Shown piece by piece: positions 5,154 through 37,846 of a DNA stretch of 64,000 nt. A program made the translations under genes and the position numbers. The stretch is taken from the NCBI GenBank assembly GCA_947561395.2, contig OX387188.1, forward strand, positions 7,238,150 to 7,302,149, in the 5' to 3' direction. How positions within the stretch are numbered: position 1 is the stretch's first letter; the number at the start of each line of letters is the position of its first letter. The notes below the pieces were generated by a model. That model made no database searches. It was not told the origin of the DNA and was given only the letters and a program-made list of their open reading frames with translations. Origin of the DNA: Buxus sempervirens (taxonomy: Eukaryota > Streptophyta > Magnoliopsida > Buxales > Buxaceae).

Positions 5154-5158
5154 CTTCC
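5154..5158. repeat. Target-site duplication CTTCC, left copy
   Basis: CTTCC directly precedes the 5' LTR of element A and recurs at 28,512-28,516 directly after the 3' LTR. Five bases is the usual Ty3/gypsy length. Confidence 0.9.
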
Positions 5159-5270
5159 TGTAGACACCCCAAATTGCACTTCCATAAGAGAGAACCTTCA
5201 AAAGAACTTTAAAAGTCTTATTTGAGCCTTGACATATGTCAAACACTCAAGAACTCTCAAAATTGGTGCC

Positions 5271-5539
5271 AACCGTACTGTGTATGCGGTTTTTTATAAT
5301 TTTGGTCTCAACCGCTCTGTATGTGCGGTTGCAACCGCACACACAGCACGGTTGATATCCATGCTTGTTGCATGGGCTGCCACGTGGCTTCGCGAAGCTT
5401 CGGCCGTTGAGCCACGTCGACAGCAATCATGACGAGCGTAACTGAATTGAACCGCCCTGTATGTGCGGTTTGGTTAAATTTGTATATGAATCGCACTTTG
5501 AGTGACGGTTGTGTTGAAACCGTACTGTGTATGCGGTTT
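5271..5539. promoter_or_regulatory. CCG-N11-CGG dyad cluster, LTR U3 of A
   Basis: Five 21-bp dyads, AACCG-N11-CGGTT, at 5271-5291, 5310-5330, 5333-5353, 5450-5470 and 5518-5538. Every copy has exactly 11 bases between the arms. The cluster ends about 200 bases upstream of the LTR TATA box. The same five recur in the 3' LTR at +20,950. Confidence 0.85.
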
Positions 5540-5739
5540 TGGCTGTTTCGGGGATTTGCGAAATGGCTCGATCTCTGAGCCTTATTTACGCATATTACCT
5601 CTCTCTTGGGGACTTGAACTCCCTATTTCACCCTCCGAAACTTGCTGAATTACTCCAATTCAAGCCTTGGAGGAGAATTGGAATAATCTAGAAGGCCTTT
5701 TTGGCCTACCCTTGGGACTCTTCTACCCCTGACTTGGCC

Positions 5740-5748
5740 TATAAATAG
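5740..5748 (+). promoter_or_regulatory. Element A LTR TATA box
   Basis: TATAAATAG followed by the GGGGTCCTCCTCTTGC block also seen in B. It should drive the genomic RNA. The 3' LTR copy is at 26,690. Confidence 0.8.
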
Positions 5749-7563
5749 AGGGGTCCTCCTCTTGCAAATGGCTGATAATTTGAAGCTTGGAAGCTCTGCA
5801 AGAAGAGGAGAAACTCTGCCGGATTGCTGCCTCAAGTGTTCAAGCTACCTAAGGTAAAGTCCTGATTACATTTCCAGCTTCTCCTTTACATTCCAACTCC
5901 CAACTTCTACCTTTCTGTAGTGTAAGGCCAGTTTGTGGTTGTTTGCAAACCCCAAACCCCTTCCAAAGTACCTGGGAATCCTCTCTAGCCGTAAAACGTG
6001 AAGAGAGAGCCTTGGGAAAAGGAAGGTGGAATGGATCCTCTAGGCTTAGAACCTACAAATGATGAAAAGCAGGCTGTCTGGTTATTTTGAACCTTTGAAT
6101 GCTTATATCTATTTTTTTATTTGGAGAAGATGCAGGAATCCATGCTCTCAATAGCAAGGGATTCAAATCTTCTCTTAGTTAGGTATTTTTCACATTATCA
6201 CACACTTTTCACTGTTTTTTTGCAAGAATAGGCTAGATCCAGGATCTTCCATGCAATATGGAAAATCTGAGATCATTGGCCTTAAAATGAATTTTAGAAC
6301 TTCATGAGTTGGGTTTTTGTTGATTTTTAAGGTTTTGGTCGAGTCCACATGCACTGGTTTCCATTTTTCTATTCAAAATCTTCAAAACAGGGCAGATCTA
6401 TGGCATGTCTTGGAATGCTTATAATTTCATCCCCCGGATGAATTTTTTAGTGATTCCAAAGACATGTGATAGATGGATATGCCTATTTTATATCTGGAAA
6501 ATTTCGTCCACTTTCATGTAGCCAATTTTTGACACCATCTGTTCAAAGTCTGTAAGTCAATTCAGCCCAGATTACTGAACTTGCCGCTTTGATGGTGCAC
6601 CGTTTATTCAATTTTAATCCGTTTTGAGTGATTCAAATTTCTGAGTTTTCTTTGAGAAGTCTATTTTCATTTCCAACTGGTTTTAGCAGATTTTGATTTG
6701 ATATGAGGCCTGTGTGCTTGATTGACTCAGAGGTGCTCGCTGGCATAGTCCAGAGCTAATCTGTGGTCTTCTAGGCCTATTCAAGAGAGCACACAAGTCG
6801 CATCCGGATAGAGTTTGGAGTGAGACCTTTTCCTTTTGAAAGAGGGCATTACATACTTCCTCCATGCCAATTTTTATGGAATTTTATTGAGCCAAACTCC
6901 ACGAATAGGACTTTGAAAATGCCTACTCATCACTTTTTCCAAGTTATACACAGAAGATTTCAGATGTGGATTTCTCTCTCGTTTTAAATCGAATTGAGCT
7001 GAATTTTTTATTGTATACTCTACTATATACCAGTTTTCTAATGGCCTTAGTTTCACTGGATTTGGATTTAAATTGAGTAAGTTATGGTTAATCGAAGCTT
7101 TCAGGCTTTTTTGATCTCATTTCTCCAGATTTGCCTTAGCTTGGTTTTCTTTGTTTTTTACTTTGATTTTATTCACTCATGAAGTCTTAGGAGTGACGGA
7201 TCCACAAAGAGAGTCTAAGCTCATTAGACTTCTCATGTGGAATGGTCACATACATTGTGCTTGTTATAAGCACTTTTTCATCCATTTCATTAGCAAACAA
7301 TTTAGAGCATAAGCAAGCATGTGGCAACCGTCTTAGACGGATGAATAGGGGTGCCTAACACCTTCCCCTGCTCATAAATAATTCCCCTTACCCAATCTCT
7401 GGATTTTTCCATATATTAGAGCTACTTTGGCTCTATTTGGCTTAGATGATGCATTTGGTGTCCATTCACACCTTAAAATAGATGGTGGCGACTCTTTACA
7501 TTTACCGATCCCCGCGTGACGATATCAGAGGTCATAATAGATGACAAATCCATGTCTCACAAC

Positions 7564-7581
7564 TGGCGACTCTGCTGGGGA
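7564..7581 (+). other. Primer-binding site, element A
   Basis: TGGCGACTCTGCTGGGGA, two bases after the LTR. It is complementary to a tRNA 3' end in CGCCA; Ogre/Tat elements are known for tRNA-Arg priming. The identical site is in D, and variants are in B and C. Confidence 0.8.
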
Positions 7582-9944
7582 CATAGTGGAGTTGAGCCAT
7601 GCTTGGATTGCTTGATCATGCTTTGATTGATTTTGTTGATTGTTTGCTTTTTGTTTGTTTATAATAAGTATATTTTGATTTGTGTGCTTCTGTTTGAGAG
7701 CATATGAGACCCATGAGAATAGGGTGTGTGATTTCCATGCTTGAGTATGTTTAGAACCATGCTTAGGAAGGCCTAATTAGCCTTACCATGCTAGATCACT
7801 ATGTTTCCATGATAGCATGCTTTGATTTGTGATTAAATGTCATGAGCATGAGATCTGAATTCTTGTTGAGAGATGTTTTGAATATGTCAAGCATGCTCAC
7901 CATGATTTATTTGCTTTTTTGTACAACATGAGAACATGCTTGCATGATGCTTGTGTGAATACATGTTTAGTATGAGCATGCTAGGTGTTTTTATTACTCT
8001 GTTTTACTCATGATTATTTACTTCAAATATGATTCCCATATCATGCCTTGGTGAATGTGATTGCACTTGCATGAATACGAAAAAGAGTGGCAAGGGTGGG
8101 ACGTTGTGTTGAATGTGACCCTCTTTTTCAAATGCACTTGAGCACCTTTTTTTATTCTTTACACAGCCTACCTATCACCTATAGGAAGTTGAACAAGAAT
8201 GTGGGTAGCTTGGCGCACTGAGGTCGTTACTTCGGAAAGCGAAAGTGAAAACATTCACCTTAGAGACTTTGAGCCAATGATGTGATGACATGGTGGATCT
8301 AGAATTCTGGTCATATACTAGGCTTGAGCTCTAAGTTGCCAATAACCCAAAACCCAAAACCCCTACGCGAAGGTGGAGAAACACCCTTTTGGCCAAAATA
8401 AACCAAATACGATGGGGAAAGGGTTTGTAATTGAGGGGAGGACGTCTTGCATGGCTCAGGTGACCCGAGGTATGATATGGACATCATTTTGAAGGTAAAC
8501 ATGAGGTAACAAGGTATTTTCAGTTGATTCCTTATGATATCCTCTATACTTTGTAAAAAGCATGCTCATGGTGTCCATTTGTTGGGATTTTGTGTTTCCC
8601 AGAAAATTACTATTAGCCTAGGATTGGTGTAGCCCTTAGAGAGAGTTTTTACTCTTCTTAGGTGTCATTCTACCCAAATGCCCATAGGAGGCACCCAAAA
8701 GTCCCCAAATTCCATGCATTAGGTGTCCATTTCTAGGAGAGAGCCTAGGCCCTCCTTTGTATGAATATGGCTAATCCTATTTCTTGCAGGGAATTTATGT
8801 GTGAAGGTCACCCAGGAGCTGCTGGTGCAAAAGGGCCTTTTCTTTTCCTTTTTATTTGGATTCTCAAGCCCAAGAAGGCTAAAATTGTAATTTTATTTTG
8901 ATTCATGCCCTTGAAGGCCAATTTGTATTGTAACATGTTTCTTTTATCATAAGAAATCTGCTTGTGCATATTTGTGGTCTCCCCATGCAATCTCATGAAA
9001 TTCAAGGTTTAAGCGGGCTTTTAATGCCATTTGATGTGTCAAATGCCCAATTTAGGGCAGTCTGGAAGCCACCCAATGGTGAACAATGTGTTTGGGCATT
9101 TAACCAAGCTAATAAAACCAATTGGAAAAAGAAACAAATCGAAAATCTCATTTTCGGCTTACAACCGTCCTACCGTCCTGAGTATGCGGTTGTCTGCATT
9201 TTCACTGCAACCGCATGTATCATACGGTTTAGACCAAACCGTCCTGAATGCACGGTTTTAAGCCGAAATCCCATTCCAGCCTTGCTAATTAAACATTTCT
9301 GGGTCCTTTTATCCCTAAGTCATATAAGCAAGTGGGCAGGTGTGCTAAATAAGATAAATGGCATATAAACCATTCCAAATCCACCCAAACCAAGAGATTA
9401 ATGTCATTTTTAACATTTTCACCTAAATTGAACAAATCAACTCAACTCAAAGGTGGAAATGATAAAATAAAAGTTGGCTCAAACCAAAAAATAGGTCAAG
9501 CACCTCAACTTGGGGGTTAAGTCCACATTGGGCTCTTTTTGTCCAATTTGACTGCTTAACCCACCTTAAAGTGAAGTAAATAATTCAAAGAGAATTGGTT
9601 CAAATAACCAACTCAATCACACTTCAATATCATAAATTGACCTGGGAAATCATAATAAGCTTCCAAAGCATGTTTAAAGCTTAAAGTGGGATCTAAACCA
9701 AGAAGCTCAACTCTTTTGAAATGGAACAAGTTTCCAACCAAAAATGAGAAATTTTTTAAGCATAAAGTATTCCAACTTTTAAAATTTCAAATCATAGGAC
9801 ATTTGGAAACCTTTGAACTCCAAGTCAAATCATTTAAAATTTTGAATAAAAGAAAATTTCAAATGAATCATCACCTTAAAGGCAAATTGAGTCTCTTTTT
9901 AACTCAAAACACCTAAAGGGGGAAAATCAAAAAAATATTTTAGG
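7582..9944 (+). other. Element A leader, non-coding
   Basis: No gene. A block at about 8,165-8,512 (from CACCTATAGGAAGTTGAAC through AAAACCCCTACG to a GGTAACAAGGTA end) is conserved in B and D, which argues for an RNA-level role. Three CCG-N11-CGG dyads lie at 9171-9257. Confidence 0.7.
9171..9257. promoter_or_regulatory. CCG-N11-CGG dyad cluster, leader of A
   Basis: Sites at 9171-9191, 9209-9229 and 9237-9257, all with 11-base spacing. B and D have clusters at the same relative place, before their hairpin arrays. Confidence 0.8.
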
Positions 9945-10613
9945 CATTTGAAAGCCTTGGAATTTCAAAAAATCAAATCATAGGACCCTGGAAGCCTGAA
10001 ATTCCAGATTTTTTCAAAATTCTCATAGGCCTTCTAAAGCCTTAATTTAGAAACTCATAGGACCCTGGAAGCCTGAAATTCCAGATTTTTTCAAAATTCT
10101 CATAGGCCTTCTAAAGCCTTAATTTAGAAACTCATAGGACCCTGGAAGCCTGAAATTCCAGATTTTTTCAAAATTCTCATAGGCTTTCTAAAGCCTTAAT
10201 TTAGAAGCTCATAGGACCCTGGAAGCCTGAAATTCCAGATTTTTTCAAAATTCTCATAGGCCTTCTAAAGCCTTAATTTAGAAACTCATAGGACCCTGGA
10301 AGCCTGAAATTCTAGATTTTTTCAAAATTCTCATAGGCCTTCTAAAGCCTGAATTTAGAAACTCATAGGATCCCTGGAAGCCTGAAATTCCAGATCTTTT
10401 TCAAAACCTTCATAGGCCTTCTAAAGCCTGAATTTAGAAAATCATAGGCACCTGAAAGCCTGCGTAATTTCAGGAGGTTGTGGAAGCCTTAATTCCAAAG
10501 CATAAGCCCTTGGAAGCTTGCGTAATTCTAGGTCTCGAGTTTGTCTAAGGATTTTTACTTTGGACATCTCATTTTTTTGTGGGACATGTTGGAGGCCCTA
10601 GAATACTCCAACA
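9945..10613 (+). repeat. Leader hairpin array, element A (77-bp units)
   Basis: About 6.5 copies of a 77-bp unit (TAGGACC at 9981, 10058, 10135, 10212, 10289, 10366, then about 10445). Each unit contains two hairpins with loop GCCT: CTGGAA...TTCCAG and TTCTAAA...TTTAGAA. The last hairpin, TGTTGGAG (10587-10594) with CTCCAACA (10606-10613), is also found at the end of D's array. Confidence 0.85.
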
Positions 10614-10891
10614 GAATTTCTGTGGTTTGATCTTTTTCGTATCAATCACCTCATTTTAATAAGGTTATTTTAACCATAAATCCAAAAGACAAAAAAATAT
10701 ATATATATATGAATACAAGGGAAATCCCAAACTCATGTTCACCAAGCCTACATGCATGCATGCATAGGTGTGTAAAATTGACTTAATGGGATACTAATAT
10801 TTTTTCTTTGTCTTTTTTCTTTTACCTAAGGTTTCCGGTTCCTACTGCAACCATTGCTCCCCGACGTTCTCAGAGACTGAAATCTGCCACT

Positions 10892-13800
10892 ATGAATCCT
10901 ATTGAAGAACAATCTACTGTGTCTGCTGAAGCCTTTGCTCAACTGCAAGAGCAAGTGGCAGGGATGACAAAACTATTGGAGAATTTGCTGGCCAACCAAG
11001 CTACTCAGGCTCAGATGCAGGCGCAGCAGGCGCAGGCTCAGGTTCACCAGGCTTCATCATCCCACAACGCACCACCAGCTCAATCCCAGACTGACCTTCC
11101 ACCACCAGTCCAACCTATTCCACCTCAACCTGAACTCTATCAACCAAACCCCGAGCCTATCTTGATCCGGGAGGAGGAATCTGAATATGAGAGAGAGAAG
11201 GGGAAAGAAAAGGAGAGACTGAGGGTAGAAGTGGAGAGAAAATTTTTGGACAAGCTGGAGTCCATTCAAGAGGAGCTGAAAGAAGTAAGGGGGATCAACA
11301 CGTTGGGTGGTACCAACTTTAAGGATCTCTGCATGTACCCCGACGCGTGCCTACCGGCCAAATTTAAGTGCCCGGACTTCGAGAAATATGACGGCACCGG
11401 CTGCCCAATGAGCCATCTGAAGCTCTACTGTGGGCGTTGTGCCAATTTGGTCGGGATGACGGCATCCTGATCCAGCTATTCCAGAGGAGCCTAACTGGGG
11501 CAGCCTTGAGTTGGTTCGCAACTGTGGACCACGGCAGAATCAGAAGGTGGAAGGACCTAGCTGATGCTTTCCTTGCTCAGTACCGTTTCAATGCTGACAT
11601 CGTGCCAGATAGGTACGATATGATGAAGATGAGCAAGGGAAGAGAAGAGACAGTCAGGCAATATGCCAAAAGGTGGAGGGAAGCCGCCTCTCAGGTTTGG
11701 CCTCCCATGATGGAACCAGAGATGGTTACCACCTTCATAGGCACACTGGGGCAGCCATTTTACAATCACTTGGTGGGTCAGATTACCACCAGTTTTGCCG
11801 CTCTAGTGCAAGTTGCAGACCAGATTGAAGATGGAATCAGATCCGGGCGAATTTATGACCACACTGCCTCGGCTCGTCAGCAAGAGCCAACTTTTGATCC
11901 TTCTGCCCAGAAGCAAAAAAATGGGACAAGAAGGAACGGAGGGAAGAAGGAAGGGGAAGTAAATATGGTACAACCCCAACCACCCAAAAAACCACTCCAA
12001 GTCAACATTTCTGCACCTCCATCCAACCTAGTGCAGCCACAATCGACCTATCAAAACCCTCTCAATATTAATGTACCTCAGGCAGCAATGCCCAATCAAA
12101 AAAGGGTATTCTCGAAAGAGGAGAGGGACGCTTGGATGGCGTCCAGAAGGAATAGGGTTCTTTCCCCTCTTCCTGTGACTCCGTCCTAGCTATTGCCATC
12201 TCTGTTAAACGCGGGGTATGTTACCCTGAAAGAACCAAATCCAAATGCGTCAAAGGGAAAGAATTTCGATCCCTCCACCACCTGTGAATACCATATGGGT
12301 GCACCAGGACACCCTACAGACAGGTGTTGGCCATTAAAACACGCAATCCAGGATTTGATCGATCAGGGAACCTTGTTGTTTAACACGGCTGTACCCTCTC
12401 CCGCCAGGACTGACATTGGTCAGAATCCTCTGCCCCAGCATAATGGGGTTGGTCCTTCTAATTTTGTAGGGACCGTCTCTTCTGGACCTAGGACGTTTGA
12501 TCCCTCGCAGTTAATTGCGCTGATAGGGACATCCGTTAAGGTCTATTTTGACCAAGAAGAGATAGGGGAACAAATCAATGTCATTTCTGGAAGTAAAGGA
12601 AATGGCAAGACTGCAGAGGACATTAATGCCTCTTTAAACCGGGCCGCTTCTCTCATGGCCCAGCTTAATGTAATCAAACCCCCTCTCATCATTAATTGCA
12701 ACTAGGCTGTTGCTCCTCCACCTACTTCATCGTCCAAACCACCTTTGGTCATTAATTATGACCCCACCACAGCATCAATTACATCCGTTTCTTCTCAGAC
12801 CTTAAAATCCTCTCAACCCAAGGAACCCAGGCAATCCTCGCCTCTGGTTATTGAGGTGCCTCCTTCTAACCTCATTCCCACATCAACTCCTGCACCAAGG
12901 TCTCATCTCCAGCCCTTAGTATTTAACGTCCCAAAACCCTCCTATTCAGAAACTGCTGTACCTTGGAATTACAGCGAGGGTTATACGACCACTATCCCAG
13001 TGGGCAGGAATCAGGGTCAGGAGGAAGTAAATCTCATGACAAGATCAGGGAGATGTGTGGAAGGAAAAGAACAAGAAAAGAAAGAGGCAGAGCAAACCCA
13101 GAAGGGGAAGGCCAAGATAGGGGAAGACACCCCCCAGGTCATAAATGATGAGGCAGCAGACCTCCTAAAAATACTGAAAAAGAGTGAATTCAATATTGTC
13201 GACCAGTTAATCAAGGTCCCTGCCCAGATATCAATACTGGGATTATTGCTTAATTCAGAAAAGCATAGGGATTCATTAATAAAGGTACTCCAGAGTGCTC
13301 ATGTGCCTAAGGCAATTGAGCCAGACCAGCTCGGCATGATGATCGGCCAGATCTTATCTCACAATGTGATAAGCTTTTCAGAAAGCGAGATAAGTTCTGG
13401 TGGATGTTATCATGTAGACCCTTTGCACATCACTGTGCTTTGTAAGGGTAGCATGATAGCCCGGGTCCTAATTGACAATGGGTCAGCCTTAAATGTCTGT
13501 CCCTTGGTAACATTTGTGAGGCTTGGTCTGGACCAATCTAAAATAAAGCAGAACGGAAGGATAGTGAGAGCTTTTGATAGCTCCAAAACACACTCCCTAG
13601 GAGAGATTGAATTGCCAATTACCATCGGACCGAATATGTTTAATATCACCTTCGAAGTGATAGATATTCCTGCTGCATTCAATCTACTTCTGGGAAGGCC
13701 GTGGATCCACTCAGCTAGGGCTATACCATCCACCCTTCATCAAAGAGTAAAATATATAAGGGGTCAGAGGGTGATAACGGTCCTAGCCGAGAGTCTAGTC

Positions 13801-14670
13801 CCTCCCGTCATACCACCTGACGTAACTTTCATTAATGTGGAATTAACGGCAGACAAAATTGCGTTTCATTCTTTTCAGTTTGAAACAGTCAACTTCATAC
13901 CTGGGGGGTGTCTAAAAAAGAATGAGAAGTTGACATGCACCAACAAGATGGTGGAGAAGGTTCTGAAATATTGCAATTTCCACCCAGGGAAGGGGTTGGG
14001 AATTAATCTACAAAGAAGAGTGGAGCCCATAGAGGCACAGAGGCTAGTCCCACGAGCGGGACTAGGGATGAAAATAAGAAGATGGAAGAGGGGATCACAA
14101 GAAGAAAATGGTAATGAAAAGGAAAAAAATCAAGGAAAACTCCCTCATTTAAGGGAAACTTTTCCGAAGCCCTCTCATACCATTCAATTGTCTCCTCCTT
14201 CAGATTCCTCCAGACCTCCATATTTTAACGATAATCCTTTTAGAAAACCTTTTACCTCAACCCTTCAACCTTTTATCCTCCTCTCACCCACTTTGGCGCC
14301 CAAAGCCATGGATGAGCCTGAGCCACTGCCACAAGAGCAGCAGGATTTCACGGAAGAGATAAGGGCATTCTTTGCAATGGCAGAGGATGAAGGAAGAAAG
14401 AAAGCAGAAAAAGAGGTTCCTTTTATTGATTGGGCCTCAATCAAGATTCCTGATGAACTCACCTCTGAACTCAGCCCCGAAGCAGAAAAGGGCAGTTTTT
14501 CAAATCCGGTAATGATGGTATCGGATCAAGAGTTTGAGGAAGAGCAGGTCAGCACTATACCACCTGTTCCAGGGGGCTTTAAGCTAAAAAATTGGGAAGA
14601 GATCCTTTTGACATTTGAGGCTGCATATGGTTGGCAATCAGCTGCGGCTTCCAAAAAAAAACTCCATTAG
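10892..14670 (+). pseudogene. Element A gag-protease region
   Basis: Starts MNPIEEQS. Parts in order: a Gln/Pro-rich N-terminus with coiled coil; the gag core (about 11,330-11,830, SHLKLYCG, WKDLADAFLAQYRF, VRQYAKRWREA); an unusual zinc knuckle C-X2-H-X5-H-X4-C (12,283-12,327); a retropepsin with LIDNGSALNV (about 13,468-13,497); and a G-patch-like segment (13,975-14,090, GKGLGINL then GLGMK). Gag would form the particle and the protease would process it. The layout matches element D throughout. Broken in a few places (about three), so not translatable as one chain. Confidence 0.85.
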
Positions 14671-14791
14671 TGGATTGCCCTTTTCCTGAAGGTTTTAATG
14701 AACCTTCATCTTCAGAAAAAGCCTCTTTAGAAGGTTCTCAAAAAACCAAAAAGATTTTTCAATTTTTTCTAGAAAACCTAAAGCTTTCAAA

Positions 14792-17700
14792 ATGGTCAAG
14801 ACTGCTTATGAATCATATATACAGACTGAATTAGAGCAAGTTGAATATGACTTCGACCTCGAGCTCGACTTCGACCTAATGGGGATCGAAGAGGAGATCG
14901 AGGCCGAAGACGATGACCTTCCAAGAGAAATATCATATCAATTGGAACGTCATGAAAAGGGTATTCAACCTAATATTGAAGAAACCATTTCCATAAACCT
15001 GGGAACCGAAGAGGACCCAAAAATTGTAAAGATTGGTGCATGCTTGTCTGATATGCAACAGAAGGAAATGTCCCAATTCTTGGCCGATTACAAGGACGTG
15101 TTCGCATGGTCTTATCGAGATATGCCAGGATTGGATACAGACATGGTTGTACACAGGCTGCCGATCCTGCCAGGAGTAAAGCCTATTAAGCAGAAATTGA
15201 GAAGGTTGAAACCAGAGTGGACTTTAAAAGTCAAGGATGAAGTGGTGAAACAGTTTCAAGCCGGGTTTTTGGCAGTGTCCACATACCCTGATTGGCTAGC
15301 TAATATAGTCCCGGTTCCAAAGAAGGATGGAAAAGTTAGGATGTGTGTGGATTACAGAGACTTGAACAAGGTGAGCCCGAAGGATGATTTTCCTTTGCCA
15401 CACATCGACATCTTGGTTGATAATACGGCAATGCACAGCTTGTTCTCTTTTATGGACGGCTTTTCCGGATATAACCAAATCAAAATGGCAAAGGAGGATC
15501 AAGAGAAAATCGCTTTTATCACCCCTTGGGGAACCTTTCACTATACAGTCATGCCTTTCGGATTGAAGAATGCCGGGGCAACATATCAGCGAGCCATGAC
15601 AGCCCTTTTCCATGATATGATCCACAAAGAAATGGAGGTCTATGTGGATGATATGATCTCCAAATCGTGTGAAGAGGACGACCACTTGATCAATCTAAAG
15701 AGGGTATTCGACCGTCTAAGGAAATACAGCTTGAGGCTTAATCCAGCAAAGTGTGTTTTTGGAGCCACATCAGGGAAATTATTGGGATTCATTGTAAGCA
15801 GAAGAGGGATTGAGATAGACCCGTCTAAAGCAAAGGCAATCATTAAGATGCCATCTCCTAAGACTGAAAAAGAAGTTAGGGGCTTTCTGGGAAGAATTCA
15901 GTATATTAGCCGGTTCATAGCACAGCTCACTGCTATTTGCGAACCTATCTTTAAGCTTCTAAGGAAGAACAACCCAACTATATGGAATGAGGATTGCCAA
16001 CAAGCCTTCGACAAAATAAAGGATTATCTGTTAAATCCTCCTGTTCTAGTACCGCCAACTCCAGGAAAACCATTGATTCTGTATCTATCAATTTTAGAAA
16101 CATCAATGGGATGTGTATTGGGGCAGCATGATGAAACAGGCAGAAAAGAAAAGGCTATCTACTATTTGAGCAAGAAGTTCACAGATTATGAAACGAGATA
16201 TTCGCCTTTGGAAAAGACTTGTTGCGCTTTGGTCTGGGCAACTCAGAGGCTTAGGCACTATTTCTTAAGCTATACAACTTTGCTGATTTCAAGAATGGAC
16301 CCGTTAAAATATCTGTTTGAAAAGCCGGCTTTAACTGGTAGAACAGCGAAATGGCAGCTTTTGCTTTCAGAATTCGACCTGACATATGTCACGCAGAAAG
16401 CAATTAAAGGTCAGGCAATTGCGGATCATCTAGCTGAGCATCCATTACCAGATTATCAGCCTCTTAAGACAAATTTCCCTGATGAGGCTATCTTATTTGC
16501 TGAAGAGGAAGAAAGTGAAGACTCCTGGCAGATGTTCTTTGATGGGGCTGCAAATATGAATGGAAATGGGATCGGCGCAGTATTAGTAAAGCCAGATGGT
16601 TCACATATCCCAATCGCAGTGAAATTGAGGTTTCAGTGCACGAACAACATAGCAGAGTATGAGGCATGTATAATCGGATTACAGGCTGCTCTAGATCATG
16701 ATGTTCAAGAACTTGACGTATATGGGGATTCGAGTCTTATCATCTTCCAAACAACTGGGGAATGGAAAACCAAAGATCATAAATTGATCCCATATCACCA
16801 ATATTTGGAAGAAATAAGTACCAAATTTACTCGAATTTCTTTTAGCTATATGCCAAGATCTAAGAATCAGTTTGCGGATGCCTTGGCGACATTGGCCTCA
16901 ATGGTTAGTATTCCAGAAGGGGTAGACATACAACCACTTGAAATTGAAGTCAGAGACGAGCCAGCTTATTGTCTTGTTTTAGAAGGAACGCAAGGATCAG
17001 AAATACCATGGTTCCAAGATATCAAGAATTTCTTGGATAATCGAAATTTTCCAGAAAGCGCTAGTCCTACTGAAAAAAGAACAGTACAGAGGTTAGCAGG
17101 ACAGTTCCTCCTAAGTGGTGGGCAGCTATACAAGAGATCTTACAGTAATGTTCTACTCAGATGCGTCACCAAGGTTGAAGCAGAAAGGTTGATTGAAACA
17201 GTGCACGGAGGAGTCTGTGGGCCGCATATGAATGGACACATGCTCGCAAGGAAAATACTGCGATTGGGATATTACTGGTCTACAATGGAGCACGATTGTT
17301 GCCTACATGTTAAGAGATGCCATTTGTGCCAAATATACGCTGACAATAAGCATGCACCACCAAGTGAGCTGCACAGCATGACCTCTCCATGGCCTTTCTC
17401 TATGTGGGGTATTGATGTCATTGGGATGATTTCTCCAAAAGCGTCAAATGGACACCGGTTCATTCTAGTGGCAATCGATTATTTCACAAAGTGGGTTGAA
17501 GCTGCTTCATATGCAAATATTACAGGAAACCACGTTCTTAAATTTCTGAAGCACAACATAATTTGCCGCTATGGGTTGCCAAAAGCCATAGTTTCAGACA
17601 ATGCTTCAAATATTAAGAACAAGGATATGAAGAAGATGTGTGAGCAGTTTCAGATAACTCATCACAAGTCAGCCCCATACAAGCCAAAGATGAATGGAGC

Positions 17701-18256
17701 AGTAGAAGCGGCAAATAAGAACATAAAGAAAATAATCCAGAAGATGGTAGTGAGCTATAGAGATTGGCACGAGATGCTACCATTCGCTCTCCATGCTTAC
17801 AGAACCTCAATCCGAACTTCTACTGGGGCAACGCTGTATTCCTTGGTTTATGGAACGGAGGCAGTCTTACCTGTTGAAGTAGAAATCCCTTCATTGAGAG
17901 TGCTTATGGAAACAGAGCTTGAAGAGGCTGAATGGGTTCAGTCTAGATATGAGCAACTCAATTTGATAGAAGAAAAGCGGTTGAATGTGCTTTGCCACGG
18001 TCAATTGTATCAGAAGAGAATGGCCAGAGCCTACAACAAAAAGGTGAAGCGCAGAGCTTTCCAAGTGGGTAATTTAGTCTTAAAGAAGATTTTGCCATTT
18101 CTGGAAGACCCTCGCGGAAAGTTTAAGCCAAATTGGTAGGGACCTTATGTAGTGAAGAAGGTCTTGTCAGGAGGCGCTCTTATCTTGACAGAAATGGATG
18201 GGGCAGATTTTCCTGAGCCAATCAACTCCGATGCGGTCAAACAATATTTCCCTTGA
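14792..18256 (+). pseudogene. Element A pol: RT, RNase H, aRNH, integrase
   Basis: Parts: RT about 15,190-15,840 with the catalytic YVDDM at 15,641; RNase H about 16,030-16,445; the Tat-specific archaeal-type RNase H 16,522-16,905 (SWQMFFDGAAN ... FADALATLA); integrase zinc finger about 17,200-17,340 (H, H, CHLC); core 17,400-17,800 (GIDVIG, SDNAS, VEAAN); and a C-terminal domain ending NSDAVKQYFP. The frame differs from gag-pro, and the family is known to use splicing or recoding here. Nearly whole, with about one break. Sequence is over 90% alike to D at protein level by eye. Confidence 0.9.
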
Positions 18257-19304
18257 AGGAATATCACAAAGAAATGATCCGAGGCCATTTTTCCGTTATC
18301 CCTCACAAATTTTAATATCCCTAGATTAAACCAAGTTGAGCCTGTTCGTGTTTTAAAGAACCCAAACTGGAGCTTACAGTCGCGACTGGGGCAAAGTTAA
18401 TAAGAAAAAAAAAAAACAAAACACAAAAAGAAAGATAGCAAAGAAAGGCCAAATACAAAGAAAAGAAAAAAGGCCAATATTGGGAATGGGGGTCGCATCC
18501 ATTATAGCTGTAAGCCCAGTTGTCCCATTTTCAAAATTTTGAGCCTATAATAACCTTCTTTCATAAACTCAACCCAGCCTTCATTTAGTCCTATTGGTCA
18601 AGTCCTCGGTGATCTGGGTGTATTCCTGCAAGCTCGCGATGTTGAAAGGGCAATGACGGAATAAAAAAGCCGGTCCTAGTGAAAACCGTAACAGGCACTA
18701 GGGGCAATATTGGCAAAGAAAAGGCAAAAGAAAAATAAAAGAAAAGAAAGAAATAGAAAAAGGTCACCAACCGCACTTGGGATACAGATTGAACTAAACC
18801 GCCCTTTTACTACGGTTTTGGCAGAAGGGCTATGCAACCGCATATTGAAGATGGTTTTGGCTAAACCGTTCTGAATGCACGGTTTTGGGCGGCAGAATTG
18901 AATTGAGCAAATTTTCTGTATAGGACTGAACCAGTAGGCTATGACATACCCCCTGGAAGTGGGAAGGAAACTTGGGGATGAGTCTAAAGGTTCCAAGGGG
19001 GACGAAATGGCTTCCTCCTCATTAACTGAAATACCCTTTTTGCCCAGCTTACTTCAATTCATCCAACTATATGGGATTAAAGCATTATGGACTAATTTAC
19101 AATAAAAAACACACAAAAATGAAAATTATATTTTGGCCGATGATGAGAAATCAGTGGCTTTTCATTAAAACTGTCAGTTTTTACAAGCATATGAGAGTTC
19201 TGAGGCCAATAGTATAAAAACCTATTTTGTATTCTCTATCTTTCCACTAGTGGAGTTTCTCTTTGTACAGAAGTATAAAAAAGAAAAAAATACAATAAAA
19301 GTGG
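18257..19304 (+). other. Post-integrase non-coding region of A
   Basis: No gene. Contains modules shared with B, C and D: ACTGGGGCAAAG (about 18,388), TTTTGAGCCT then CTTTCATAAAC (about 18,540-18,575), and a TAGTGAAAACCGTAA...GGCACTAGGGGCAA block (about 18,677-18,707). Three CCG-N11-CGG dyads at 18,797-18,817, 18,836-18,856 (one arm TGG) and 18,864-18,884. The last about 200 bases match D and are probably the 3' end of the antisense gene. Confidence 0.65.
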
Positions 19305-20957
19305 CTAATCTCTATCCCCTAGCCTTTCCTCAAGCTCTCTGATCCGAGCCGCTTGAACCGCCACAAGCCTTTCAGCCCCCTCTGCATCTGGGTCACTGAG
19401 GAATGAGATGACGTCATCTGAGAGGGTCTGCCTAGTCCTCATATCTCTGAGCCTGGCCATGGTCTCATCATGCCTACACCATGCGGCTCTCACCTCGAAG
19501 CGACGGGCCTGTATCTGCTCTGATAACCGTCTCTCCAGATCTTCCTTCTCCAATCTCAAGGTTCGGGCCTCCTCCACCCATATGAGCTGAAGCCGCCTAT
19601 GAGAAGCCCGCTCAGTCTCCAAGAGGTCCTCATAGGTAGGACACGGGATAGCAGGAGGATCCACCGGTACAGAAGCGCAGCTCTGCACCTGCTCTCTAAT
19701 CCAAAAGAGATAGTCCTTCTCATGCAATTTGGAGAAGACAGGACCTCTCAAGAAGCAGGCCTGCGACCAGTCCTTCAACATGCGAAAGCATAGCCCCATG
19801 GTGGCCGGTGTGAGCGGACCTATGAACTCCTCATATCCCTGAGGTACCAGGATCCCCTGCACCTCCTCTCCAAACTGCCGGATGACCCTCAAAGGCAAAT
19901 AGAGCAAGGCAGACCTCAAGCCCATGAGCACAGCGAAATTCTGATCGGAGAAGCTGATCACTGTCTCGACAGAAGGCTAATAAGCACCAGGCCATCTCAC
20001 CTGGTCATCCTGAAGCGTCCCCAAGAAAGCAAACCATCCCTGTTGGCCACCATGGATATTGGGACACCCCCTGTTGCTCATCAAAACAGGAATATTTAGC
20101 CGAGGGAAGAAGCGGCGGGTGATCTCTTCAACTTGACTCAAGTGGTCAAGTAGCTAGAGCTGCAAATAAAAGGGAAGCATTTCTATCTTAGAAAATCTCA
20201 ATTTTGCAATAAAAGTTATAATTCAATAAAGAGGTTCAGATTTTACCTGAAGTATAGGGGCGCACGTGAGGAAACTTTTCTGCTTCCGGTGATAGCAGTC
20301 AGTCAAGGCCTGGTATATTTCAGCCAGGATCATAGGGGCAAGCCTTTCGCGCTCCCTAACTTGGCAAATGACTGAAATGAGGGATAAATCAACCTCGCTA
20401 TCACCTCGGGGGAATAAAAGTTGGTTGACCGCTATCAAGGTCAAAGCATTGAACCGAGCCGTTTGGTTTGGGCTATTCAACAGCTTTTCAGTCAAAAATG
20501 ACTTTGATAGGGTCAATAAGGCGTCAGCTTCCCCTAACTCTTTTTTGCTAATTCCTAAAAAGGTGGAGGCTTCCTTTTTGAAGCTTGGTTTGAGAGGTGG
20601 GTTGACAACTTTCTTGGAGAACCTAAGGTTGAGGATGGTTTCAACCTCCTCGACTGTAGGAGTCATCTCTTTTTCTCCAAACCTAAAGAGGTTCAATTGG
20701 GGTTCCCAATGCCCAATCAATGCCTCTATGATTTCCCATTTTAAGGGAACCTTTGGGATTGAGAGAAGGTGGCCTAGATTGGCAGAATCCCAATCTATCT
20801 CATCCTGTGGGGTCATTGAATCAACCCACCTCTCGTAATAAGTATCTACAATGGCATACCTGGTCAAATTGGGAGGTTTGGACCTAATTTGTGGTCTAGG
20901 TACTAATGTTTCAGGTACAGAAGATGAAGAAGGCACAGAAGTTGAATCAGAAGCCAT
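19305..20957 (-). pseudogene. Antisense extra gene 1 of A (DUF7745-like)
   Basis: Starts MASDSTSVPSSSS at 20,957. The first block (to about 20,247) holds a DUF7745/plant-mobile-domain-like fold signature (IIEALIGHWEPQLNLFRFG, then EKEMTPTVEEVETILNL). A donor CTTCAG|GTAAAA and an acceptor around 20,154 suggest one short intron. The second block ends in a long charged coiled coil (about 19,600-19,310) finishing ISFLSDPDAEGAE ... ARIRELEERL. The same C-terminus is in D (63,473 on), so it belongs to the family and is not a chance capture in this copy. Extra antisense genes related to the plant mobile domain are known from Tat elements; their function is unknown. About one break in this copy. Confidence 0.75.
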
Positions 20958-21064
20958 TAATGGGCAAAAGTGGATTAAAGGCAGCTAGGAGAGAGAAAAT
21001 CGCCGAAACAGGGGGTTTCTGACCTACGTAATACGTCAAAATGACGTCCTGCCCGCAATTCGCG

Positions 21065-21206
21065 GCTTTAAAATAACCTAAGGGCAAAAACCGCATACAC
21101 AGAACGGTTATGCCTGAACCGCACTTAATGTGCGGTTGCATTCCCGCAAAGTTTAAAAACCGCGGGATAAGCACGGTTCTTGCATAACCGCCCTGTATGT
21201 ACGGTT
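21065..21206 (-). promoter_or_regulatory. Promoter region of antisense gene 1
   Basis: On the minus strand an AT-rich TTATTTTAAA lies about 110 bases before the ATG. Immediately upstream sit four dyads at 21089-21109, 21117-21137, 21158-21178 and 21186-21206, all AACCG-N11-CGGTT. Confidence 0.6.
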
Positions 21207-21437
21207 TTTGCACAAAAAACAGTTTTTCTTCTTTCTTTTAATAAATCATGTTCCCCAAAGAACCTGTTACCTGTATAGCAGTTGCAACATGACAAACATA
21301 CACAAATAAACAAAAAATTAAAAGAAAAGAAACAAAAATAAATAAATTTTCTCTTTTTCATATAAACTGCCAATGGATACATCAGGTTTTATATACAGAT
21401 ATCAAATGAATCCTAACCTAAACCCATCTCCTACAGG

Positions 21438-24246
21438 TCAATCCGCCTCGCCTCTACCTCGCCATCGCTGCCGGATGAAGAAATGATCGGAGAAGCGCTG
21501 GCTAGCCGGAGAAGACGGCTCAGCAGGAGTCGAAAGACTAGCAGGAGGCACCGGGTCTGCAGGAGGCGCAGGATCGGTAGAAGAGGTTGGAGCTGGAACT
21601 GGATCATCCCGAGACAGGTCCATGAAGCAGGAGACTGAAGTATCCGTCGCCAAAGGGACCAGCTCCAGAATCTGGGAATCCTCGGCAGGAGGAGAGGGAT
21701 CTGTGGGGTCCGCTGCGTCACGCACCTCTGCCACCTCGGGCTCAGCTACATTAGGCATCCCCTCCTCTCTCACGGGCTCGGCCACCTCGGGAACCATAGG
21801 AGCCTCTAAGTCACCCTCCGCTGTCTCAGGAGTGGTCTCCGGCTCAGATACAGGAGTGGTCTCAGATACAGGCACGGCCTCTGGCATCTCAGCTGACTCA
21901 GGAACTGCAGCAGCAGAGGTCGCCTCGGCCGCCACCTCACACTCTCTCTCTGGGATCTCTGTAGCTCCTAAGGAAAAGGATAGAGTGCGAGAGCTGGATG
22001 GAGAAGCCGCCACATCCTCCTGAAAGGCAAAGACAGATTGATCAGAAGCAGAAAAAATAAAGGAAAAAATACAGAAACTGAAAAAGACAGACCTGAGCTC
22101 CTGAAGGCCCCGCCTGGCCCTGAGCACTGGCCAACTGGGCCCGCAAGTCAGCAATAAGAGCGGCCTGCCCAGTGATGATGACGTCGCTCTCAGCAATGGC
22201 GGCGTCTCTCTCAGCCAGCTGGCGCTCCAGATCCGCATATCTAGCCCGGACCTCCTCTAGCTGTGCCTCCTGAAATGAGATAAGAAGAGAAAAGATATCA
22301 GTAAATAAGAAAGGAAGACTAAAAGACTGCACAAGGAAAGGAGATTCATACCGTGGTGTCATATAGGCGGATCACCACCCCTCCTATCTAAGTAACTCCA
22401 CCTCGAACGGGCATGGGCTGCATAAGACAACCCACTGAAACCTGCCCGAACCAGGTATCATAGTCACCATCAACCAAAAGGGCATCTCCTGCCTCCCACT
22501 CACTGAAGTGAGCAGGGTCGAATGGACCAGGAGGGGTGAAGGAGGCTGTAGCTGGAGGAGCCACTGGGATCCGGAGCTTGCCAGTATGCTGGAAGAAGAA
22601 TCGCTCGCCGAGGTACCATATGCTACCCAACTGCCCGATGAAGAATGGGTACCTCTGGCGCCGCTGATCCAAGGCAAAAGCGTCGTCCACAAAGGGCTGA
22701 AAAGCCAACTCGTCGTGCAGACCATCGAGACGAGGAACAGAGAGCTGAGGATAAACAGAGGAGAATGTCAGATTCTGACAAAAAAGGGAAAAAAGAAAAG
22801 AAAGAAAGAAAAGAAGAAAGTGCTTACCTCTCTCCTGAAGGTCCTGTCCAGGTGAGCTCTGGCCGACCTAGGGGGACTCTTCTCTGAGTCACGCCTAATC
22901 CGATTCCACCGGCGGGCCAAGGGAAACGTCCCCTCAGGCAGTGTGGAGGTAGGACGAAAATGGGCCACGTAGACCCGAGCAAAGAACTAAAAGAAAAAAA
23001 AAAAAGAGATAAGCAAAGACAAAAAAGAGAAGAAAAAGAAAAAAAGAAAAAAGAAAAAAAAAGAGAGAAAAAGAAAAAGAAAGAAGAAAAAAGAAAGAAA
23101 GTCATTTATACCTATAAAAAGGGCCAGAAAAACCTGCAACCCACTCCGGCCCCTCTGGGAGAGGATAGGCCAGAAACCACTCGTCGTAGGCCTGCTAACA
23201 AGGTGCCATAGACAAGCTGGCACCAGGCATACTCCCTCGCTCGGTGCAGATCCCGAAGAAGACTCAGAAAATGGGGACTGACTGAAGTAGTATCCTCCAA
23301 GCAGAAGCAGGATCCCATCATCAGGAGGAAAAGAAATCTGAAGGCCACGGGAAAACTGGGATGCTCCACAGCTAAAGTGCTATATAAGTGCTATATCCCC
23401 TCTGCAGAAATGTCTCCCTCAACCAGGTCCGGGAAATGCGGGTGATCCTGCTCCTATCCCACGCCCCCACGGGCATCTCATCATATCCCAAGAGCTCGGC
23501 GATCTCCAAATCCGCCGGCCGATCCATCTCAGTGATGACATCTCCAGTCATCCTGATCCCGGTAATGAGAGCGAAGTCGGAGGGGCGAATACCAATCTCC
23601 ACGTCAGGCAGATGAAAGCTCAAGGTCTCTGGGAAGAATCGCTCCATCAGGGCCAAGATCAAAGGCCGATCCTGACGAACGCCGGTGATGGTGATGAAAG
23701 GGCCAAATCCAAAACAGCCCATCTCTCGACGCAAAGGAGTCGAACAGGCCGCTACTACATCAGCAAAAAGGGCCCAGCTCTCGCGGAAATGAGAAGAAGG
23801 ATAAGCAAGAGGGATGTCCGCCCTGACGCCCGCTGAAGGATGCGTCGTCAAACTATGGAGGAGAGAGGTATCTCGGATCTGATCCGCTATCTCCGCAGGA
23901 ATGGCAACACGAGTCACCCGGGCTCCTGCCCTCTCTCTGCGACGAGCTCCCCTACGCTCTCGAACCTCGGCAACGGGCTAGAAAAGCAAATGAGAGGGTT
24001 TCAGATTGAATGTAGCAAAAGGGAGGTTTTTTTTTTGAAAAGAAGAGAGAATACCTCGGGTGCCGACTCCAACGAATCCCCGGACGCCCCCGAGTCTGAA
24101 TCTGAAAGCTCCAGACTGCTGGGAGAAGAAGGATCAGGGTCCGGCTCGGCCCTAGAAGAAGAGGCCACATCGGCCGGGTCCCTCTGAACCCTCGAAGATG
24201 AAGGCTCATCTGCGGGACCCCGGGAAGTGCGACGTGTACGGGCCAT
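21438..24246 (-). pseudogene. Antisense extra gene 2 of A: plant mobile domain, six exon-like blocks
   Basis: Blocks on the minus strand, bounded by GT..AG signals: 24,246-24,055 (basic start MARTRRTSRG, then Ser/Asp-rich); 23,977 to about 23,112 (plant mobile domain, LALMERFFPETLSFHLP, IGIRPSDFALITGIRMTG); 22,987-22,828 (VAHFRPTSTLPEGTFPLARR); 22,744 to about 22,351; 22,270-22,094 (coiled coil LEEVRARYADLERQLAER); and 22,021-21,438 (long acidic Pro/Ala/Glu/Ser tail). The pure A/G tract at 22,985-23,100 is intron. PMD proteins of hosts act in transposon silencing and development (MAIL1/MAIN type). Retention of introns fits antisense placement, since genomic RNA would not splice them. A couple of breaks in this copy. 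Confidence 0.75.
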
Positions 24247-25648
24247 CTACAAGACCAATTGCAGGGAGAAATTCTTTATGTTTTTTTTAATAAAATCATT
24301 ATATTTGCTTTCATGTTTCCGTTAGTTTTGATTTTCTTTGGCTTAATCGAATTCATTTTGTTTGCAGAAGAAACGAAGATCGGAGGAAACACTTCAGCAA
24401 GTGTCCGGCCGAATCAAGATTTGATTCCTTTCAGAAATCTTTATTAGTCTTTTATTACTAGTTTGGCTATAAGAATGATACACAGGAAATAAAATCCCTA
24501 TGCATCTTTCTTGTATGTCAGAAAAGTGAAAGTATACTTATATGCTGAAAGAAGCTTAAAAATTCTTAAGTGGTTTATTAATTGTAAAATATTGATGTAT
24601 TGACAAAGTGTCTAAAGTCCCTAAATTTATTATTTCAGGGTGTCAACCAAAGAACAATCAAGGCATGATATGGGCTGCTTAGTGTTTGCCTATTCCCGGG
24701 CAAAGTATTAGGGTGCTCCAGGATCATGAAATTGGCAAAATAAATCAAAGGCCCTATAAGAAGACAATGGCAGGAGCTATCCCTACAAATTATCAGAACA
24801 CAAATCCATGGCAGGGCATCATACAAAAGCCAAGTCCATGCAATCATAAGACACCTTGGAAACAGAAATCAGAAAATTGCAAGCTACATATGCAAAAATC
24901 AGAGTGTCATTAGCATTCAAGGCATTCCAAAAATTGGTCAAGTCAATGTAGCAAACCATGGCACAATAACAAATGAAATTTAGTGCTGCACTGAGATTCA
25001 TGTTCACAGACAATAGCTGAAAGGAAATAATCAGAATGTGAGCAAGTAACCAAAATCATGCTGGAAATCCGAGCAATACAAGTCACGGTTCAAGTCAATA
25101 CAGGCAATGGGCACATGTAAAATTGGGGATTTTCTCCCATCAACAATTAAGCAACCAAGGCATTCAATCAAGGACAAAGAATCAAAATCATGCCTACAAC
25201 AAATTCATCCAATCAGGAAATATAAGCATGGATTTTCGGATGAAGAAATTGCAAAGGAAATCCAGGTTCGGCCACTTACTTGTTCTGGTCGACAAGAGAA
25301 AGATTGGACAATGTTTGTCTCACCAGGGATTCAGGAACAAGCAATCACCACCACCGAATGATGGAGATGATCCAGTAAAGTGGGCCTGTGCGAGGGGAAA
25401 TCCCAAGAACCAAGGAGAAACACTGGCGCGGCAAGGAGTAGAGTTTTGCTTGAATATGGCCAATGCAGCAGTTCACCGAAGAGAATGAAGTTCGCCGGAA
25501 AAGCAGAAGCCGCCGGATAGCAGAAAGTCTTCGCCGGAGGAGAGGGGAAGAAGACCGGAACCAAACCACGGTCGCCAGAGAAGAAGGTAAGCTCCGATAG
25601 TCGAGGGTTTTCGCGAACGAAATGAAGCCAGGCGCGGTCGTGGCCGCG
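24247..25648. other. Upstream region of antisense gene 2
   Basis: No coding region recognised. An acceptor-like TTGGTCTTGTAG directly precedes the ATG on the minus strand, so a 5' UTR intron reaching toward the promoter near 25.65 kb is likely. Confidence 0.45.
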
Positions 25649-25765
25649 TTTATATGAAACCTAGAAAACCGCACACACAGAACGGTTGGTATTAATATTG
25701 TTGAAAACCGCACATACAGCACGGTTGAAATCGAAAATGCTAAAAACCGCATGTTCAGTACGGTT
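25649..25765 (-). promoter_or_regulatory. Promoter-like region of antisense gene 2
   Basis: Minus-strand CATATAAA (25,656-25,649). Directly upstream are three dyads at 25667-25687, 25706-25726 and 25745-25765, spaced 39 bases apart centre to centre. Same arrangement as at gene 1. Confidence 0.55.
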
Positions 25766-26094
25766 GGCACCCAGCAATGAATTTTCAAAACCTTTTCCAA
25801 TCTCTTTCAAAAGACCTATGTCCAGGATAGTTGTGAATTGCAAGAAGCACCACCCTATCAACTTTTGCTTTAAAAATTTGCTCAAATCTTACTTCATAGC
25901 CACGAGTGCTCTGTGAGACGCGAGAAGAGGATTTGCCTCTTAAGGTTAGGGACTTTTCATCAGATCCTCTAAACAAATTCTTTTTCAAAAATCAAGTCGG
26001 AATTCTTGTAGCTTATGATCAAATGGACATGATCTTGGGAAGCGCAATTTGCGGGTCTTTTTGCTCTCCGCTGTTAATTGATTCCAATTCCAGC

Positions 26095-28511: not shown

Positions 28512-28644
28512 CTTCCATGGCATTATCCACATTATAATAATCTCCACTTATATTTTCTACATTAAAATGCAAGACAAGTTAAGTTTTCTAACAATTATCC
28601 GCATTCAAATAGTATAACCACTAACCAACAATAAAAAATTGAAT

Positions 28645-34799: not shown

Positions 34800-35695
34800 A
34801 TCTTCGTAGGCCCATGGAAGCCTGAGTAAATCCATACCCTTGAGTTAGGTATCTGAAAGCCTTGGAATTTCAGAAAATCAACTCATAGGATGGCTCGAAG
34901 CCTGAAATTCCAGATTTTTTTCAGAACTCATAGGCCTTCTAAAGCCTTAATTTAGAAACTTATAGGATGGCTGGAAGCCTGAAATTCCAGATTTTTTTCA
35001 AAACTCATAGGCCTTCTAAAGCCTTAATTTATAAATAGGATCTCTGAAAGCCTGAAATTTCAGAATTTTATCTTAATAAGCCCTTGGAAGCTTGAGTACT
35101 TCCAAATCATGATTTGTCTAAAGGCTTTTACTTTAGGCATATCATATTTTGTCCGACATGTTGGAAGCCCTAGAATATTCCCAACCACTTTGGATGGTCT
35201 TTTTCGTACCAACCAATTCATAGGCCTCTAGAAGCCTGAGTAATTGTAGAAACCTTTGTTTGGGCCATCTATAAGCCTCTAAATTATAGACAACCTTTTT
35301 GGGCCGTCTAAAAGCCTTTGAATTTTAGACAAATCATTTCTTTGGGCCTTCTAAAAGCATCTGAATTTAAGACAAATCATTTCTTTTGGCAATCTATAAG
35401 CCTCTGAATTATAGACACATATCCTTTTTTGGGTCGTCTAAAAGCCTCTAAATTTTAGACACCTTATAGGCCTTCTAAAGCCTGAATTTAGAAAAATCAT
35501 AGGACTTCTGAAAGCCTTTAAATTTCAGAACTCATTTCTTTGGGCCCTCTATAAGCCTCTGAATTATAGACACATATCCTTTTTTGGGCCGTCTAAAAGC
35601 CTCTGAATTTTAGACACCTCATAGGCCTTCTAAAGCCTCAATTTAGAAAAATCATAGGACTTCTGAAAGCCTTTAAATTTCAGAACTCATATCTT
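34800..35695 (+). repeat. Leader hairpin array, element B (left part)
   Basis: About 20 hairpins sharing a GCCT loop but with different matched stems, for example TCTATAA (35268) with TTATAGA (35284) and GTCTAAAA (35306) with TTTTAGAC (35323). The array resumes at 46,878 beyond element C. Confidence 0.8.
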
Positions 35696-35700
35696 GGGCC
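35696..35700. repeat. Target-site duplication GGGCC for element C
   Basis: GGGCC directly before C and again at 46,873-46,877 directly after it. Confidence 0.9.
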
Positions 35701-37843: not shown

Positions 37844-37846
37844 ACT

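Follow-up and report, generated by a model that had tools for sequence, protein, structure and literature searches.

Clustered fixed-gap dyads near promoters of Ogre-type retrotransposons in Buxus sempervirens, with antisense plant mobile domain genes as a candidate source of their reader

Dyad clusters in three retrotransposons

The window considered here is a stretch of 64,000 nucleotides of Buxus sempervirens (contig OX387188.1, positions 7,238,150 to 7,302,149), and it carries three long terminal repeat (LTR) retrotransposons of Tat/Ogre type, here A, B and C, in which a dyad of the form CCG-N11-CGG recurs in clusters. Element A has LTRs that are 98.8% identical to each other and is flanked by a CTTCC target-site duplication (5154-5158 and 28512-28516); besides gag and pol it has two antisense genes, the first of which encodes a plant mobile domain (PMD). 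B (about 30-35 kb) shares about 75% identity with A in the LTR and leader, and C (50.9-64 kb) has its own gag-pol, with the end of a homologue of antisense gene 1 at the window edge. Coordinates of all features are collected in Table 1.

The first-pass annotation of this DNA reported 23 copies of AACCG-N11-CGGTT in A, and all are recovered at no more than one mismatch (five in each LTR, three in the leader, three at 18.8 kb, four at 21.1 kb and three at 25.7 kb), 21 of them being exact and those at 9171 and 18836 having one mismatch each; a decayed copy at 18769, with two mismatches, is still in phase. The dyads do occur across 5271-25765, the span originally given, and they extend beyond it to the 3′ LTR of A and to B and C, so that the observation is not just confirmed but is larger than first described. 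In the whole window there are 40 CCG-N11-CGG against 1.69 expected from 100 dinucleotide shuffles, none of which reached 40 (the largest count was 6), and AACCG-N11-CGGTT with up to two mismatches occurs 46 times against 10.4 expected and a shuffle maximum of 18. This large enrichment, with the gap scans below, rules out chance or base composition as the source of the dyads. Ten clusters account for 35 of the 40: by exact cores, A has 5 in the 5′ LTR, 3 in the leader, 2 at 18.8 kb, 4 at 21.1 kb, 3 at 25.7 kb and 5 in the 3′ LTR, B has 3 in the LTR and 2 in the leader, and C has 4 in each. The other five, at 22233, 25555, 28462, 30370 and 46276, are unclustered.

Spacing and register

When everted CCG/CGG pairs are counted at every gap from 0 to 44 in the window, gap 11 has 40 and gap 39 has 15, with every other gap having between 0 and 9; the excess at 39 is the distance between neighbouring sites. 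By region the gap-11 pairs number 19 in A without its 3′ LTR, 6 in B, 8 in C and 6 in the 3′ LTR of A, with a single one in the remaining 18,222 bases. Among gaps 5-20, gap 11 is the most frequent in each element taken separately (19 with a runner-up of 6 in A, 6 with a runner-up of 1 in B, and 8 with a runner-up of 1 in C), no other spacing in this range being comparably enriched in B and C, the related elements of this window. The 11-base gap had been called invariant, which describes the peak in A, B and C well and fails for a sixth site of the A LTR: in the 3′ copy this reads AACCG-N12-CGGTT (26439-26460), in the 5′ copy (from 5489) it has an AATCG arm, and its counterpart in B, at 30455, has N11. 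The accompanying suggestion that the half-sites are two helical turns apart does not hold, as 21 bp is the outer length of the site and the centres of CCG and CGG are 14 bp, or about 1.3 turns, apart.

Neighbouring sites also keep register. With decayed sites included there are 29 gaps between adjacent sites, of which thirteen are 28 bp, one 27, three 38, five 39, one 41 and two 23, with 48, 68, 79 and 117 occurring once each (the 48 and the 79 involve the doubtful site at 30370). Twenty-three of these 29 are of 27-28 or 38-41 bp. Inside clusters, which were delimited by eye, the proportion is 23 of 25, against a mean of 3.7 under uniform gaps of 21-60, and none of 20,000 draws was as high. 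At a pitch of 28 bp a core falls every 14 bp, CCG and CGG by turns, and the CGG-N11-CCG formed between sites equals the gap within a site, while a pitch of 39 bp gives CGG-N22-CCG; the window has 17 pairs of the former kind and 14 of the latter. Such a lattice of half-sites would suit a multimer that spreads along the array.

Placement with respect to promoters

From the last LTR dyad to TATAAATAGAGG, the first TATA[AT]A in each LTR, is 202 bp in A, 193 bp in B and 202 bp in C, with C keeping the distance although its cluster differs in sequence. At 25.7 kb a minus-strand TATAAAC (25654), proposed as belonging to the promoter of antisense gene 2, is 13 bp from the cluster, and on the plus strand a TATAAAC at 9364 is 107 bp past the leader cluster of A. 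The 21.1-kb cluster is 132-249 bp upstream of the ATG of antisense gene 1, with no minus-strand TATA[AT]A around it at 20800-21250. The proposal that the clusters precede the LTR TATA box and the antisense genes is thus borne out for the LTRs, where the TATA is some 200 bp on, and for the 25.7-kb cluster, and lacks a TATA at 21.1 kb. The proposal that the dyad is of a protein-binding type fares well: the dyad is a two-half-site element of fixed spacing, clustered near promoters, with the look of a site for a protein.

Half-sites, interiors and decay

A matrix was made from 22 non-redundant A and B sites with exact cores, leaving aside the 3′ LTR copies, decayed sites and 30370. Its half-site is R-CGG-TT-(T/G). 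Of the 44 half-sites, 43 have a purine inside the arm (read on the other strand, the pyrimidine of AACCG-Y), and the two outer positions are T in 43 and 41. The sites of C preserve core and spacing, but their second outer base is C in 14 of 16 half-sites and their first is G in 10 of 16. The interiors had been described as freely varying. For A and B this is not so, as, when oriented by likelihood, they have a directional consensus, YNCTG(T/A)RTRTG, whose 10.6 bits exceed all 200 random re-pairings of halves (maximum 10.3), keeping in mind that 60 restarts for the observed set and 10 for each null set slightly favour the observed value. Common descent of the sites could explain this shared interior as well as recognition could. 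An A-type interior is found in C only at 54057, the other seven of eight looking unrelated on inspection.

Seven phased sites have one broken core base, and in six of these the change is C-to-T or G-to-A, the list being confined to sites whose outer bases match and whose core has a single mismatch. The bias fits loss of methylated cytosines, with too few cases for proof.

The arms of A and B bring to mind a host factor, and the strongest rival to a reader encoded by the element is a host R2R3 MYB protein, of MYB88/MYB124 type or the sperm-lineage DUO1, that would read AACCG(C/T) and let the element borrow host expression timing, perhaps that of the germ line. For DUO1 we take the consensus to be AACCGY, which is alike to the AACCG-Y of A and B, though a search of the literature did not find AACCGY. 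The accessible text of PMC2653642 is without AACCG, while MdMYB88 and MdMYB124 do bind AACCG motifs according to the part of PMC6032162 available, and that the arm is a known host site weighs against an element-encoded reader. Monomeric MYB sites, however, predict neither the strict N11 dyad nor the 28/39 register; lone AACCG/CGGTT shows no excess (49 copies lie outside dyads, the expected total being about 53), and C keeps core and spacing, yet 14 of its 16 half-sites have arms of GCCCG or GACCG type. Recognition by a host MYB is regarded as unlikely, if worth keeping in view.

Two readings do without a DNA-binding protein, and both fit worse than a host MYB. In the first, the arms would form hairpins, in RNA or DNA, with a part in RNA packaging, splicing or termination. 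The 5-bp arms can indeed pair (the mean predicted RNA energy of the 22 21-mers is -5.3 kcal/mol), but the interiors do not lengthen the stem (the mean z is -0.34 relative to controls with shuffled interiors), just 2 and 3 of the 22 sites have complementary bases at positions ±1 and ±2, the clusters are upstream of genes on both strands, and between 5000 and 35700 nothing matches Rfam at gathering thresholds. The hairpin reading was rejected because the interiors fail to extend the arm pairing, and we give it hardly any credence. The second, scarcely more probable, is that the sites are a satellite-like by-product, in which a single ancestral site was duplicated locally in tandem and has no present function. 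Tandem Repeats Finder does report a 39-bp array (25665-25766) and one of 28 bp (53958-54017), and the interior consensus of A and B would follow from such an origin; against this, the clusters are scattered over dissimilar places in three elements and have kept their arms while the spacers differ, and C has the same pitch, and in its LTR the same TATA distance, with apparently unrelated interiors in seven of eight.

The antisense genes

The N-terminal exon of antisense gene 1 encodes a PMD/DUF7745 domain, with matches above Pfam cut-offs to PF24924 (3.7e-20; 72.7 bits against 26.0) and PF10536 (1.5e-10; 41.2 against 34.9). A donor-like CAG|GTAAAA near 20246 would allow splicing to a C-terminal exon with a heptad-rich tail, the coiled coils here and in gene 2 being judged by inspection and by weak Pfam coiled-coil matches (PF16808, below cut-off). 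The C-terminal open reading frame (ORF) is open in A, and in C as far as the window reaches. Over 162 aligned codons of this part, A and C have a pN of 0.25 and a pS of 0.75 (saturated), which shows that it has been kept as a protein by selection; pol, with pN 0.06 and pS 0.74 over 758 codons, sets the pace against which gene 1, by its pN of 0.25, evolves faster. Antisense gene 2 is in separate ORF pieces and is likely a PMD relative that, by its sequence, falls short of family membership.

A regulator encoded by the element need not be a PMD protein. The ORF at 10787-11470 upstream of gag, or another antisense ORF, could encode it, and several antisense ORFs are without a family match. The upstream ORF, however, has Pfam matches below cut-off only, and among the genes with a family match it is those for PMD proteins that, besides the LTR, have dyads upstream. 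A non-PMD regulator from the element is considered improbable.

Proposed operators of a self-encoded regulator

The dyads may be operators for a regulator that acts as a dimer or multimer, the likeliest candidates being the antisense PMD proteins of the element itself, a proposal whose chances we put as even. Each subunit would recognize a single (A/G)CGGTT half-site, which is AACCGY in the opposite strand, with half-site centres 14 bp apart, and the antisense PMD/DUF7745 proteins would dimerize through their coiled-coil-like C-terminal tails. The dyads precede the gag-pol promoter in the LTR, recur in the leader and precede the two antisense genes. A PMD protein binding both the LTR and its own promoters would form a self-controlled circuit that activates its own family or protects it from silencing, and this arrangement of sites is the one expected under self-regulation. 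The proposal also draws on the excess of dyads over shuffles, the N11 peak in each element, the register, the near-constant TATA distance in the LTRs, the better preservation of arms than of interiors between A and B, the PMD/DUF7745 matches of gene 1 and the maintenance of its C-terminal part in A and C.

Several points weigh against this proposal. That PMD proteins bind DNA at all is something we infer. A Protein Data Bank sequence search with the two PMD pieces found nothing for gene 1 and one weak match (E 0.91) for gene 2, and a single-sequence AlphaFold model of gene 1 had a mean pLDDT of 37.7 and was unusable. The PF10536 match of gene 2, split over ORF pieces, scores 31.8 bits, which is below the cut-off of 34.9, and the proposed ATG of gene 2 is 1.4 kb from its dyads. 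The PMD exon of C is beyond the window, which puts any co-change of protein and site outside the reach of the comparison. A directional interior is not expected from a plain symmetric dimer. Among promoters, the LTRs of A and C have further TATA[AT]A downstream of TATAAATAGAGG, the leader TATA of A is without a counterpart (no TATAA in B at 34213-34460 or in C at 54075-54200), and no obvious promoter accompanies the 18.8-kb cluster. The case for conserved arms is also softer than the figures suggest. In all eight A/B pairs of N11 sites from the A 5′ LTR and leader (the N12 site, 5489 in A and 30455 in B, being excluded), identity is 71 of 80 positions in the arms and 51 of 88 in the interiors (p about 1e-5), with arm conservation overstated by the choice of A sites with intact arms. 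The 5′ and 3′ LTRs of A differ at 28 places, of which two fall inside dyad interiors. The arms of the five N11 sites have none, but with an expectation of only about 0.6 this comparison has no power.

A wider form of the proposal, held more tentatively, is that Gypsy-encoded PMD proteins are sequence-specific regulators and that Ogre elements have a private operator code, CCG-N11-CGG in a 14-bp half-site register, which a PMD/coiled-coil protein encoded in antisense reads to switch on or de-silence its own family, with subfamilies varying the outer bases and keeping the architecture. If this were so, the Ogre antisense genes would gain a function, the host silencing factors MAIN and MAIL1 would be kin to a retrotransposon transcriptional regulator, and LTR retrotransposons would possess an equivalent of what VANC is to DNA transposons. 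Tat retrotransposons often carry antisense genes, and a 21-bp site beside a possible reader gene makes their function experimentally approachable.

Relation to known systems

Transposon regulators that act on clustered motifs include TnpA of En/Spm, though its motif is a single 12-mer. A paired CGG site with an 11-base gap is also familiar from the fungal protein Gal4, where the half-sites, as CGG-N11-CCG, point the other way.

A close relative in logic is the VANC/VANDAL system of Arabidopsis MULEs, in which, from the text of PMC5735166 available, a transposon protein reads a short motif whose copies cluster, frequently as tandem repeats, in non-coding sequence of the protein's own family, with related transposons carrying different motifs. 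Here too there are motif clusters, ten of them, in non-coding regions of elements. VANC motifs, on the other hand, are single words of 8-9 bp (YAGTATTAY and AGTTGTCC/AC) and not fixed-gap dyads, and the terms 'palindrom', 'spacing' and 'dimer' are absent from the main text of that paper as available (PMC5735166). Binding and demethylation were shown for VANC (PMC5735166), while the present case is an LTR retrotransposon with a candidate PMD protein that would do the binding.

PMD genes in Ogre elements are themselves known, extra ORFs for PMD being reported in 57% of them (PMC6317226) and the PMD-A clades being exclusively Gypsy-encoded, with function described as undetermined (PMC5418596). 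Element A shares with that lineage the Ogre/Retand domain order and an antisense PMD gene, but in the accessible parts of these two papers (PMC6317226, PMC5418596) no target site is proposed. The TRP28 genes of Retand are likewise antisense genes between pol and the 3′ LTR with predicted DNA binding and a proposed regulatory role, and differ in having PF04195 rather than PMD and, in the text at hand, no described binding site (PMC11963269). The function of Tat antisense genes generally is called unknown in the portions available of PMC7264820 and PMC11963269.

In the host, the PMD proteins MAIN, MAIL1 and PP7L have been linked to a promoter motif, DOWN (abstracted from the accessible text of PMC7156037 and PMC9899485). 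Its instance in MORC1, CATGCAGTTT, resembles the inward-extended half-site ATGCGGTT, which 9 of the 44 half-sites have, but identity with DOWN was not accepted and the likeness, which is weak, serves as no more than a lead: an equal score is reached by 2.2% of random 10-mers and by 1.8% of shuffled versions of the motif. In the same available text DOWN is not described as a dyad, and PMC9899485 gives the chromatin contact of the complex as unknown. What is known already is that Ogre elements have PMD genes and that a transposon-encoded protein can act on clustered sites, as VANC does (from the portion available of PMC5735166). Among the open-licence papers listed on the site or on regulatory sequences of Ogre elements, taken mostly by title and opening of the abstract, none describes this motif, and a fixed-gap operator lattice in an LTR retrotransposon beside PMD genes appears to be new.

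Element structure and neighbouring sequences

Table 1. Features of elements A, B and C, numbered from the first base of the window
Feature	Position	Strand	Remarks
A 5′ LTR	5159-7561	+	2403 bp, TG...CA ends
A 5′ LTR dyads	5271-5538		five N11
A leader dyads	9171-9257		three, 38/28-bp pitch
A ORF upstream of gag	10787-11470		1.5 kb below leader cluster
A gag ORF	11392-12189	+	PF03732, 6.6e-11
A reverse transcriptase (RT)/RNase H/second RNase H (RVT_3)/integrase ORF	14702-18139	+	PF00078, PF17919, PF13456, PF00665
A dyads between pol and antisense gene 1	18769-18884		four phased, 28/39/28 pitch; two intact cores, two with one core mismatch
Antisense gene 1, putative C-terminal exon	19305-19976	-	coiled-coil-like heptad-rich tail (inspection)
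Antisense gene 1, N-terminal exon	20223-20957	-	DUF7745/PMD; ATG 20957
A dyads upstream of antisense gene 1	21089-21206		four, 28/41/28 pitch
Antisense gene 2 region	21438-24246	-	separate ORF pieces
Gene 2 acidic stretch	21438-22256	-	Pro/Ser/Glu-rich
Gene 2 coiled-coil-like stretch	22042-22371	-	
Gene 2 partial PMD pieces	23372-23977, 23112-23390	-	PF10536, 1.1e-7 and 7.9e-4, both below cut-off
A 25.7-kb dyads	25667-25765		three, 39/39 pitch
A 3′ LTR	26109-28511	+	N11 dyads at 26221-26488
B LTR dyads	30228-30503		B LTR end about 32526
B leader dyads	34127-34213		three, 38/28 pitch, one with core mismatch
C LTR	50904-52722		four dyads at 51007-51110
C leader dyads	53943-54075		five, 28-bp pitch; one broken core at 54029
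C homologue of gene 1, C-terminal part	63473-64000	-	cut by window end
TATAAATAGAGG TATA box	5740, 30696, 51312		A 5′ LTR, B, C
C-to-T/G-to-A core breaks	18771, 18838, 30230, 30268, 30485, 54029		sites from 18769, 18836, 30228, 30266, 30483, 54027
G-to-C core break	34129		leader site of B

A second RNase H between RNase H and integrase is the Ogre/Retand arrangement, according to the accessible text of PMC6317226. The pol ORF of A has RT_RNaseH at 454-558, RVT_3 at 613-731 and rve at 898-995, with the second RNase H before the integrase, and on this, a trait it has in common with Retand, and on its antisense PMD gene, common in Ogre elements without being diagnostic, A is probably of the Ogre lineage. 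The ORFs 12706-14670 and 14702-18139 of A are separate, and the gag-protease part is itself split. In both A (12706-14670) and C (55209-58901) the ORF that precedes the RT ORF has a G-patch domain.

Relatives elsewhere were sought in two collections. A viral contig collection scanned with the gene 1 exon, the pol alignment and an RT piece gave no relative, and the 28-bp tandem operator pattern had 0 matches in it. A collection of genome contigs other than those of plants gave one locus among 304 candidate stretches: a plant-like Tat pol, 49% identical, at 2498-4477 of a 4.7-kb contig filed under Streptomyces clavifer, and probably plant contamination. This locus has 0 dyads against 0.28 expected and is too short and too distant to be informative.

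B is interrupted by an unrelated LTR element (35700-46872) whose LTRs are about 92% identical; the CCG-N11-CGG at 46276 is in this inserted element and has no match in its other LTR. The leader of A has a 77-bp tandem array at 9978-10462 (6.3 copies, 95% matches), of which B has two copies at 34880-35035, with different arrays further on in B and in C.

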